The position numbers and the translations under genes were made by a program. A stretch of 64,000 bases of DNA from NCBI GenBank assembly GCA_033485155.1, contig JAWQJJ010000002.1, forward strand, positions 62,001 through 126,000. The letters run 5' to 3'. Every line of letters starts with the position of its first letter. The stretch's first letter is position 1. The DNA comes from Methanomassiliicoccus sp. (GTDB lineage: Archaea > Thermoplasmatota > Thermoplasmata > Methanomassiliicoccales > Methanomassiliicoccaceae). This document shows positions 14,734 to 18,263 of this stretch, piece by piece. Below the pieces are notes generated by a model. The model ran no database searches. It saw only the letters and a program-made list of their open reading frames with translations, and was not told the DNA's origin.

Positions 14734-15036
14734 CGTCAGGTGTTCGATCCGCGGAACATTGCAGCCTGGATGACTATGCGTTCTGGATGGAGCCGGCTAT
14801 ATGGCCAACGAGAGTGGCAGTATCTCAGTCGGAGGGCATATTGCGCCTAATGGCGCTCGGAGGGCAGATGAAGAACGTTTCGCTCCTCAAGATCGACCGC
14901 TTCCCATTGCACGGTCCGTCATTCGGCGGCATCGTCGCGGACGGAAGGGGAGGGGCGATGAGATGGGTAGCTGCCTTCACATGAGGGCGATTTCGCTATG
15001 CACCGTCCATCTCTTGGAGTATGGTTCCAGGCCCGA
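14734..15036. other. Intergenic, nothing recognised
   Basis: About 300 bases upstream of the HNH gene and downstream of the response regulator. GC-rich with no supported gene on either strand. Only the HNH promoter near 14690-14702 overlaps its edge (14691-14700). Confidence 0.4.
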
Positions 15037-15810
15037 TCAAGCGTGGATCGGCCCATGATATCTCGCCTGATCGGAGATATCCCAGTATCTGGTCAGACAT
15101 GCTGGTCCGTCCTCGAGCTCCACGTGGATCTCGTTGATCATGGCCTTGAACCGCGAGCCGTTGACCCGCTGCACCGGCATTACGTGGATGAAATTGGTGG
15201 TGCTCCTGAGCTCCAGCTTCAGCAACCTGTCCAGGACCTCATCGCGCATCTCGGGCAGGGCCCAGGCGAGCGATGGCTCGTCCATCATGTCATCCACCCG
15301 CTTGAATCCGAATAGGTGAGCGCAGTCCATGTTGGCGTGCACGAGCATACCAGAACGGAACAGGGATGTTGCTCCAAGAGAATCGTACACCACCGTCTGC
15401 GGGCTCTGGCCTCGCCTGGTAAACTTACGTTCCAGCTCTTGCTTCTGCGAGAGCTGTATCAAAGTACTTCTCAGGTTCTTGAACGCGGCCATTCCATCAA
15501 CCCCCCTCTGGATGTAGGAGTTCGCACCGTTGTTCACCGCTTCCCTAATCACCTCTTCCCTCCTGCTACAGGTAAGGAAGATGAACGGGGTCTGGTCCCC
15601 CCCTTTTCGAAGCGTTTTCAGGAAATCGATCCCATTCATCTCCGGCATGTAGTAATCGGAAAGGATGGCATCGAACCTCTGCTTTTTCAGCACTTCGAGG
15701 GCTGAGGGGGCCGAGGTTACCGGAGTCACTTTGATCGAGCCGCCTTCGCCAAGGAACGTTTTTGTCAGATACAGTAGCTCTTCATCATCATCTACGCACA
15801 ATATGTCCAT
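15037..15810 (-). CDS. Response regulator with receiver domain and PAS-like C-terminal region
   Basis: 257-aa two-component receiver protein. REC domain at about 1-120: acidic pair in CVDDDE (D7-D9), phosphoacceptor Asp52 in LSDYYMPEMNG, and Thr80 in FIFLTCS. The conserved Lys at the end of the fifth strand appears replaced by Arg102 (YIQRGVDG). The C-terminal half (about 150-245) looks PAS-like (MLVHANMDCAHLFGFKRVDDM) but has no DNA-binding or kinase motif. Such REC-PAS proteins are common in methanogenic archaea and may signal to other proteins. No kinase gene is adjacent; the only one in the window is at 59.5 kb. An AT-rich promoter lies at 15838-15856. Confidence 0.82.
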   Translation of the reverse strand: MDILCVDDDEELLYLTKTFLGEGGSIKVTPVTSAPSALEVLKKQRFDAILSDYYMPEMNGIDFLKTLRKGGDQTPFIFLTCSRREEVIREAVNNGANSYIQRGVDGMAAFKNLRSTLIQLSQKQELERKFTRRGQSPQTVVYDSLGATSLFRSGMLVHANMDCAHLFGFKRVDDMMDEPSLAWALPEMRDEVLDRLLKLELRSTTNFIHVMPVQRVNGSRFKAMINEIHVELEDGPACLTRYWDISDQARYHGPIHA

Positions 15811-16188
15811 TGAGTGCTTCCCCTGTGGAAATATTATTATTTCAAAATATATAGATTTGCGTTGTATAACAGTGGCGAAGATTCTCTGAATTCTTCAAGG
15901 GTCGCATATGGCCCATGCTTCCATGACATCATATCGTATTCGTTCGATGGTCCCTATCCACGATGCCAGTTGCTGGGAGGCTCAAGCACAGACCGGAGCA
16001 CGAACGGCCAGGTGTATGGGAACAGAGGAGTAGTCTCCGGAGTAGAGATGGAGCCCATACGCACTCACATCTGGGACGAAAGCCGTAGCAGTAAGGTTGG
16101 GCGCGAGATCGATTATTATCAACCGTGATGATTAAAAAATATATTTTGTACGTAATATTTATCTCCTGACGTTCATGATTCTCGTGTC
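15811..16188. other. Intergenic promoter region between divergent genes
   Basis: Holds AT-rich promoter-like stretches at both ends: 15838-15856 (minus strand, response regulator) and CGTAATATTTATC at 16151-16163 (plus strand, about 31 nt before ATG 16189). The middle has no supported gene. Confidence 0.45.
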
Positions 16189-16488
16189 ATGGGAAATGGC
16201 TGCTCCCGATGCCAGGAGATCATCGCTTGGCTTCAGGATCGGGAGAAGGGTCACAGCATGGTTTGCCCGATTTGCGGGAGGTATTACACAAAAGGAAGGC
16301 GCTGGGTGGTCGGGGAATACGGTGACCCGGTGAACGAGGCATGGCAGCATAGCGTCCGTCAAGCATACTGCACGACATGTGGCTGGAAAGGTTCGATGAA
16401 GGATGCCGCTTTGCTCGAGGACGATCGCTCCCCATTCCGATGTCCCTCGTGCGGAGGTCTCGTCACGAATAGAAGGGATAAAGAATGA
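16189..16488 (+). CDS. Small zinc-ribbon protein with four CxxC motifs
   Basis: 99-aa protein with four CxxC knuckles: CSRC near residue 5, CPIC near 26, CTTC near 63 and CPSC near 85. The spacing suggests two zinc ribbons joined by a Trp-rich linker (RRWVVGEYGD). No other domain. Rubredoxin-like or nucleic-acid-binding roles are possible, but nothing in the sequence decides. Start ATG 16189 lies just downstream of the TATA-like box at 16151-16163, so a very short or no leader is expected. Stands alone. I do not recognise the family. Confidence 0.65.
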   Translation: MGNGCSRCQEIIAWLQDREKGHSMVCPICGRYYTKGRRWVVGEYGDPVNEAWQHSVRQAYCTTCGWKGSMKDAALLEDDRSPFRCPSCGGLVTNRRDKE

Positions 16489-16640
16489 AAAATGCGGCTT
16501 GCACTGGACGATTCTGAAAAGAGCGGAAGAATAATCTCGATACGCTTGATGTGAAAGTTGGAGACGGTGGAACTTCTATTCATCAGGAGATTTGCATAAT
16601 TGTTGAAATTGATCGATACGAATGAAGTTCATGGACCGTG

Positions 16641-16660
16641 CGGGAAAAGCTTTAAACAGG
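16641..16660 (+). promoter_or_regulatory. Promoter of candidate ncRNA
   Basis: GGAAAAGCTTTAAACAGG resembles a BRE plus TATA box centred near 16653. Initiation about 26 nt downstream falls at about 16678-16680, directly before the structured region. Confidence 0.5.
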
Positions 16661-16677
16661 TATAATGGGTTTCGATA

Positions 16678-16785
16678 ACCTAAGCCTCCCTACTGGCCTA
16701 AGTGGATTTGAGGGAATCTATGGGCAACAAGGATGAGCGTCCTTGCGGCACAGCTACCAATAGGGAGGCTGTATGGTCATTTTTT
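16678..16785 (+). ncRNA. Candidate structured non-coding RNA (novel)
   Basis: An outer stem pairs 16683-16696 (AGCCTCCCTA, one mismatch, TGG) with 16757-16770 (CCA, mismatch, TAGGGAGGCT). Inside it are two hairpins: 16703-16708 with 16715-16720 (TGGATT/AATCTA, one G-U pair), and 16728-16733 with 16740-16745 (perfect CAAGGA/TCCTTG, loop TGAGCG), which can extend with GC/GC across an internal loop. A TATA-like promoter precedes it and TTTTTT (16780-16785) follows. No ORF fits. It is not a tRNA, and I could not match it to RNase P, SRP RNA, or a C/D or H/ACA guide. It could be a free sRNA or a cis element upstream of pgk (257 nt away). Confidence 0.6.
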
Positions 16786-17042
16786 AAGGCCTTAAATAAA
16801 ACTATTGCCTAAATGCAGTTGGAATTAGATCGGCATTCTGTCTCCATTAGAAAACAGGAAAACTCCTGATCAGCAATAATTGAGCTTATGGCACATTGAG
16901 GATTATGCGCTCACCCGCTGCCCTGGTTAGCAGGCAGTAGTGAATGCCCGATGTCCCTGCCAGCAATGATGCAGGGAGAAAAGGTTATTTCAATCATGCA
17001 ATATGGTGGTCACACCGCCAGTCCAAGCTAGCAGGGATCACG
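16786..17042. other. Leader region upstream of pgk
   Basis: 257 bases after the ncRNA U-run. Holds AT-rich stretches at 16786-16805 and 16878-16905 that may contain the pgk promoter, and a small inverted repeat with CCCTGC / GCAGGG arms (16956-16961 and 16972-16977). No gene supported. Confidence 0.35.
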
Positions 17043-18263
17043 ATGAAGCTGTTCAACACGCTCGATGATTTTGAGTTCCAGAACAAGACTGTACTGTTGC
17101 GGGTGGATATCAACTGCCCCCTGGCCAAGGACACTCTGGAGATCGAGGACGACAATCGCATACGGCAGATCATTCCCACCGTCAGGGAACTCCTGGACCA
17201 AGGGGCCAAAGTCGTCATCATCGCTCACCAAGGGCGGCCGGGAGACTGGGACTTCGGGCCCCTGGACAAGCATGCCGTACACCTATCCAAGTACCTAGGG
17301 AAGCAGGTGCGGTACATCGACGACATCGTCGGTGAGGTCGCGGTCAACGAGATCCGATCTCTCACCCCAGGTAACGCCATACTGCTGAAGAATGTGCGTG
17401 AGCTGCCGTACGAACAGGAGAAGAAGAGCATGGACGAGCACGCCAGATGCGAACTGGTCACCGTGCTCGCCCCTCTCGCCGATTACTACGTAAATGACGC
17501 CTTCGCCACCGCCCATCGCTCCCAGTGCTCCCTGGTCGGCTTTCCCAAGGTACTACCTTCGGCGGTGGGCAGGCTCATGGAGAAGGAGCTCAACGCCCTG
17601 CAGTCAGTGTTCGACGACCCCGGGCATCCCTCCGTGTTCATTCTGGGAGGGGCGAAGTTCGGCGACTCTATAAAGGTCATCGAGCGGCTGCTAAAAAGTG
17701 GCACGGCGGACTGGGTCATCCTCGTGGGGCTCAGTGCCAACGCCTTCCTGACAGCCCGGGGGATCAAGCTGGGTGCGCCTTCCACCAAGATCCTGGAGGG
17801 CGAGCTAACGCCGGAGACCCTGGAGGCAGCCAAGGTTCTGTTCAAGGAGCATGGGGAACGCATCCTCCTGCCGTTCGACGTGGCGGTGGAGATCAACGGT
17901 CAGAGGAGGGACATGATGGTCGGCGATCTGCCCATCGATGTCCCCATTTTCGATATCGGCAAGTTTTCGATGACCAAGTTCGCCAAGGTGCTGGCCCCGG
18001 CGAGGACGATCTTCATGTCCGGCCCCGCCGGGCTCATCGAGAAGGAGCAGTTCTGCCTCGGGACCAGGGAGATGATGAACGCCATGGTCCACTCCAAGGC
18101 GTTCACGCTCATAGGCGGAGGGCACACCGTGGGGGCGGCCGAGCGATTCGGCCTGGCGGAAAAGTTCTCTTATGTTTCGACCGCCGGCGGGGCCCTGGAG
18201 ACCTTCATCCTGGGCAAGCCCCTGCCGGCGATCGAGGCCCTGAAGCAGTGCAAGAAGGCTTAA
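17043..18263 (+). CDS. pgk: Phosphoglycerate kinase, archaeal
   Basis: Interconverts 1,3-bisphosphoglycerate plus ADP and 3-phosphoglycerate plus ATP. 406 aa, normal length. The N terminus MKLFNTLDDF followed by KTVLLRVDINCPL is the archaeal PGK signature. Further motifs are AHQGRPGDWDF (substrate Arg region), FILGGAKFGDSIKVI and the nucleotide loop FMSGPAGLIEKE, ending with GGGHTVGAAERFG. Start ATG 17043 matches family starts; an ORF beginning at 16944 would add 33 poor residues. Convergent with the lysine operon, with the two stop codons overlapping by three bases at 18261-18263/18260-18262. Confidence 0.96.
   Translation: MKLFNTLDDFEFQNKTVLLRVDINCPLAKDTLEIEDDNRIRQIIPTVRELLDQGAKVVIIAHQGRPGDWDFGPLDKHAVHLSKYLGKQVRYIDDIVGEVAVNEIRSLTPGNAILLKNVRELPYEQEKKSMDEHARCELVTVLAPLADYYVNDAFATAHRSQCSLVGFPKVLPSAVGRLMEKELNALQSVFDDPGHPSVFILGGAKFGDSIKVIERLLKSGTADWVILVGLSANAFLTARGIKLGAPSTKILEGELTPETLEAAKVLFKEHGERILLPFDVAVEINGQRRDMMVGDLPIDVPIFDIGKFSMTKFAKVLAPARTIFMSGPAGLIEKEQFCLGTREMMNAMVHSKAFTLIGGGHTVGAAERFGLAEKFSYVSTAGGALETFILGKPLPAIEALKQCKKA

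Follow-up and report, generated by a model that had tools for sequence, protein, structure and literature searches.

An 88-nt intergenic element in the genome of Methanomassiliicoccus sp. very probably belongs to a real RNA family, since scattered and differently spelled copies of it retain a paired main stem, and it probably represents a small RNA gene family that has not been described before. The element occupies positions 16683-16770 of the window (the whole 64,000-nt stretch of DNA that was analysed) and is more than a product of chance, as its multi-copy conservation and the covariation of its closing stem, P1, demonstrate. Its fold, its multiple copies, the covariation of P1 and the conservation of its core were all established by computation. 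It is likely transcribed from the minus strand, opposite to the direction first proposed from the sequence alone; the minus strand and its promoter are supported but not proven, while transcription itself, the masking of ribosome binding sites and the targets are what we infer.

Folded from P1 to P1′, the 88 nt give z-scores of −3.95 on the plus strand and −4.95 on the minus strand, with none of 200 shuffles as good, and the whole 145-nt interval folds just moderately better than its shuffles (z −2.15). Model R3, which was partly built from the window copy, matches 16688-16765 on the minus strand with an E-value of 9e-17 in the window. Each of the sequence features described in the sequence-only reading is present: a 10-bp perfect outer stem (AGCCTCCCTA/TAGGGAGGCT, 16683-16692 with 16761-16770), a 3-bp extension TGG/CCA across one C·A mismatch (16694-16696 with 16757-16759), a perfect 6-bp hairpin with loop TGAGCG (CAAGGA-TGAGCG-TCCTTG, 16728-16745), a second enclosed hairpin (GGATT/AATCT, 16704-16719), a TATA-like sequence (CTTTAAAC, 16650-16657) and TTTTTT (16780-16785). 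The last two are present as sequences, their roles as promoter and terminator being separate claims that are taken up below. In the preferred orientation, the features are as follows.

16683-16770, minus (preferred reading): structured RNA element, 88 nt, with the minus-strand fold and R3 match given above.
16756-16770, minus: P1 5′ arm, AGCCUCCCUAUUGGU, forming 15 uninterrupted pairs with 16683-16697, G·U included, and covarying in relatives.
16683-16697, minus: P1 3′ arm, GCCAGUAGGGAGGCU, identified by pairing, own-arm preference and covariation.
16728-16745, minus: P3 hairpin, CAAGGA-CGCUCA-UCCUUG, in 5/5 intact copies, without double changes.
16720-16727, minus: conserved linker UUGCCCAU between P3 and P2, complement of AUGGGCAA (alignments A4 and A5).
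16704-16719, minus: P2 hairpin with pyrimidine-rich loop CCCUC, the complement of the Shine-Dalgarno-like GAGGG.
16780-16785, minus: A6 (the U-run of the sequence-only reading), a putative AT-rich stretch from TATA box to start.
16793-16801, minus: probable TATA box, TTTTATTTA, ending 22 nt before P1, a placement shared by six P1 copies.
16645-16657, plus: BRE/TATA-like sequence of the sequence-only reading, AAAAGCTTTAAAC.

Searching the rest of the same genome revealed two further intact, unlinked copies and two remnants.

C1:286397-286488: c2, intact copy.
C2:397455-397550: c3, intact copy.
C7:352-411: c7, remnant with P1 and P2 retained and P3 missing.
C10:62435-62517: c10, remnant with P3 and linker retained and P1 missing.

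The c10 remnant (L050:9036-9118) overlaps or adjoins the 3′ end of a gene for a PAS-domain histidine kinase/response regulator. Models built from the own-genome copies identified one copy each in two genomes of the same genus, G005 (contig C54) and G001 (contig C59), so that the intact set comprises five sequences (window, c2, c3, G001 and G005), three of them from one genome. Three of the seven genus genomes carry the family, and it appeared in nothing else that was searched; the remaining four, including three with a completeness of 97% or more, gave no significant match. Single weak matches were seen in G009 (E 0.7) and on contig C47 of G005 (E 2.4). Model searches of 147 genomes of the order and 400 of the class returned, beyond the three genus genomes, just weak matches (E 0.03-1), and those inspected resemble chance matches in coding sequence. 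An exact pattern scan of the GTDB species collection gave no match to the strict pattern and 29 to a looser one, among which L071, the G001 record, alone scored with the model, and the viral contigs, phages and plasmids searched held chance matches only.

P1 differs in sequence among all intact copies while its pairing is retained. Double-sided changes occur in all nine modelled pairs (20 cells) and 96-98% of cells in the P1 alignment stay paired, with a covariation of 0.635 against 0.198 in shuffles (0/500 reaching it) and at most 0.19 when the partners are slid; across analyses the values are 0.59-0.64 against 0.17-0.20 shuffled and below 0.2 slid. These figures come from five intact copies whose P1 arms were aligned by hand with N letters as spacers, and because the arms were hand-placed an independent arm-swap control was added, in which each 5′ arm was combined in turn with all 3′ arms and the duplex energies were computed. 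In six of six P1 copies the own 3′ arm was, on the minus strand, the best partner for the 5′ arm (own arm versus strongest arm of another copy: c2, −37.6 versus −29.1; c7, −26.5 versus −16.3), and the c10 remnant, which has lost P1, showed no own-arm preference. The relatives therefore carry the compensatory changes whose absence, according to the sequence-only reading, would have spoken against an RNA. P2 and P3 hardly vary and, being nearly invariant, are uninformative on covariation; it is through P1 that the element displays the compensatory, helix-retaining changes of a structured non-coding RNA. In c3 (L003:1495-1591, minus) an alternative 8-bp hairpin, GGUAUGCC-UCCGACC-GGCAUACC, competes with P1, which may reflect a possible switch or chance.

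The apical core is kept as the hairpin CAAGGA/UCCUUG, the linker and, in most copies, a loop with CCCUC or CCUCC. All five intact copies, and c7 too, conserve P2, whose loop reads CCCUC, CCUCC or CCCCA. Among positions that are unpaired or paired only weakly, conservation on the minus strand is highest in a segment that reads UUGCCCAU-AGAUUCCCUC in the window, the reverse complement of a Shine-Dalgarno sequence, spacer and AUG.

The element matched no known family. Rfam 15 at gathering scores gave no match in the window, tRNA, SRP RNA and RNase P RNA included; permissive Rfam scans, run on the element itself and on the loci of c2, c3, G001 and G005, gave nothing credible, and ARAGORN found no tRNA. 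Box C (RUGAUGA) and box D (CUGA) are absent from both strands of 16683-16770, so a C/D box sRNA was rejected, and an H/ACA layout (ANA box 3′ of the closing stem, pseudouridylation pocket, kink-turn) was not seen by eye on either strand. Brief literature searches turned up no published account of RNAs of this sort from Methanomassiliicoccus or its order. Together with the paralogues and the covariation, the negative Rfam result, which the sequence-only reading had named as a check on itself, supports the proposal of a folded intergenic non-coding RNA outside known families.

Being nearly palindromic, the element cannot be assigned to a strand from its structure alone. The same RNA family could be transcribed from the plus strand, as first proposed, with a BRE/TATA element at 16645-16657, a start near 16680 and termination at the U-run at 16780-16785, a reading that we regard as unlikely. 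The plus-strand TATA box at the proper position scores well in the window (p 0.0145) and in that copy alone: it is poor in c2 and c3, and a TATA-like box at that position is absent in G001 (score −7.4) and G005. On the minus strand, a TATA-like box ends 16-25 nt before P1 in six of six P1 copies. The combined p for TATA placement over the six copies is 0.0007 on the minus strand versus 0.07 on the plus strand, the plus-strand value owing mostly to the window copy; scoring used a generic archaeal weight matrix of our own making, and since the copies are not independent these p values serve as guides only. A sigma-70 promoter scan is irrelevant to an archaeal host. Copies c2 and G001 have TAGTTTTATYAA in common despite a diverged spacer between box and P1, and other copies carry an A-rich tract at a similar position on the minus strand.

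Other evidence is divided between the strands. The P1 mismatches in the window and c2 are C·A on the plus strand but G·U on the minus strand, where the P1 of c2 reaches 22 pairs with one bulge. Against the minus strand, the P2 stem is more stable on the plus strand, c3 has a better P1 there (−30.7 versus −26.5), U6 follows the stem in the window and c2 with U-rich tracts after P1 in other copies, and no terminator consistent across copies was found on the minus strand. Plus-strand transcription would, however, leave the conserved block past the U-run without a role, and this, together with the change of C·A to G·U in P1 and the shared TATA-like boxes, is why the minus strand is favored. The own promoter proposed on the plus strand has thus found little backing, the U-run taken for the RNA end is probably an A-rich stretch between the minus-strand TATA box and the start, and strand, promoter and terminator as first proposed are probably wrong. 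Within 16645-16657, the palindromic AAAGCTTT, shared with c2 alone, could alternatively lie at the 3′ end of the minus-strand RNA. A nearly palindromic RNA gene judged by eye may be placed on the wrong strand, and relatives can correct this.

Our preferred explanation is a stand-alone non-coding RNA gene in a small dispersed paralogue family of one Thermoplasmatota genus. Minus-strand transcription would proceed from the TATA box at about 16793-16801 with a start near 16770, giving a transcript in which a long variable P1 (~10-22 bp) would present a conserved apical domain made of P3, the linker and P2 with its CCCUC or CCUCC loop. In trans, the linker and the pyrimidine-rich loop would pair with initiation regions of target mRNAs and so block ribosome binding, with P1 acting as a scaffold whose pairing, but not sequence, would matter. 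We give this explanation as a whole, a stand-alone minus-strand sRNA of a dispersed paralogue family acting in trans on translation initiation, slightly less than an even chance. An RBS-masking antisense RNA was proposed since the plus-strand resemblance to a Shine-Dalgarno sequence and AUG is not a conserved ORF; masking as such, argued by analogy, is possible but doubtful. A multi-target repressor of translation initiation, in which drifting complementary stems would present the complement of a complete Shine-Dalgarno-spacer-AUG from several paralogues per genome, is decidedly unlikely.

Genome-wide target searches with a 19-mer, a 22-mer and a 13-mer found no strong target, the best complementarity outside the family having three mismatches in 19 nt. 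This level is reached by the start of a DUF169 gene (G000:C1:988-1006, minus; L111 near 1500), compared with the plus-strand core and with its AUG in register, where predicted pairing runs across Shine-Dalgarno sequence and AUG at −27.6 kcal/mol. As this site was selected from a genome-wide search, and as one of 89 control ORF starts in the window reaches −28.3 (mean −15.2, sd 4.2), the DUF169 start is a candidate target and only a lead. The lack of a strong mRNA target also fits a minus-strand protein-binding or structural RNA, whose apical domain would bind a protein or sequester a regulator without antisense pairing to mRNA. We judge this unlikely as well; conservation centred on the apical junction, with P1 varying freely while paired, is in its favor, but no known protein-binding motif was recognised and no partner gene accompanies the copies from locus to locus. 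The protein-binding and antisense readings are equally unproven.

The genes next to the element are unlike in every copy and convergent in several. They are pgk and a small zinc-finger-like gene in the window, a corrinoid-binding protein gene at c2, an acetolactate decarboxylase gene in G005, and genes for hexapeptide and Ig-domain proteins in G001. The same type of gene does not stand downstream of all copies, as a riboswitch or other cis-acting leader would demand, and such differing neighbors favor a stand-alone RNA over a riboswitch. In the window, the RNA lies within ~2.3 kb (14734-17042) separating an HNH gene from pgk, a stretch that also holds a response-regulator gene and the small zinc-finger-like gene. 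This stretch looks specific to the genome of the window: G006, G004 and G003 lack it and have an HNH-like coding region (homology by sequence reading) directly upstream of pgk. Although position 16944 could open the pgk ORF, relatives resemble it only from near 17043 on, where the true start likely lies.

Such a lineage-specific context, the several unlinked copies with truncated remnants (c7 and c10) and the patchy occurrence within the genus could also be produced by a dispersed palindromic DNA repeat, MITE-like or a recombination product, with no RNA function. In MITEs, the terminal inverted repeat sequence is the conserved part. The family resembles MITEs in being short, dispersed and palindromic with truncated copies, but here the arms differ from copy to copy while remaining complementary and the centre is conserved; terminal inverted repeats conserved in all copies are not seen, and no transposase occurs among the neighboring ORFs scanned. 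A comparison aimed at a target-site duplication resolved no clean empty site, as the region upstream of pgk differs wholesale from relatives. We consider a DNA repeat improbable.

The statement in the sequence-only reading that there is no ORF holds only loosely: the minus-strand core, read on the plus strand, looks like a Shine-Dalgarno sequence and AUG at the head of a frame of 30 codons (16720-16812), but the other copies keep neither its reading frame nor its length. A plus-strand leader peptide or small protein (GAGGG/GGAGG, spacer, AUG at 16720; MGNKDERPCGTATNREAVWSFFKALNKTIA) is very improbable, for although G005 and G001 have a well-formed GGAGG-spacer-AUG, viral-contig gene starts resemble the motif and the copies of one genome read MGNKDERP, MGSKDERP, MGNKDKCP and MGNKSKRP, the frames span 30, 17, 8, 8 and 22 codons, that of G005 is one base short and shifted, and there is no conserved downstream gene to regulate. 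Small ORFs on either strand were likewise rejected, their frames not being conserved among copies, and a 430-aa ORF of G001 that starts inside the element, without a match in Pfam, looks artefactual.

Characterised archaeal trans-acting small RNAs are few. The present family is compact and multi-copy, its stem covaries, its core is conserved and it probably has its own promoter, which makes it a concrete, testable candidate in a genus of Thermoplasmatota. In bacteria, sRNAs such as those with C-rich loops in Staphylococcus aureus carry a pyrimidine-rich loop resembling an anti-Shine-Dalgarno sequence. The window RNA has a similar loop, though in another domain of life, on a weak 4-bp stem and with a target that is predicted only. 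In Methanosarcina mazei, sRNA162, which is built of three stem loops, uses an unpaired linker of 39 nt as its contact region to mask a ribosome binding site and start region, and it has a homologue, sRNA171 (PMC3510493). Unlike in sRNA162, one long P1 here closes a two-hairpin apical domain, and the function is putative. Like sRNA162 and sRNA171, the family is archaeal, small and structured, with homologues only in close relatives; it is a lineage-restricted archaeal small structured RNA without an Rfam match, of a kind already known but probably new as a family.
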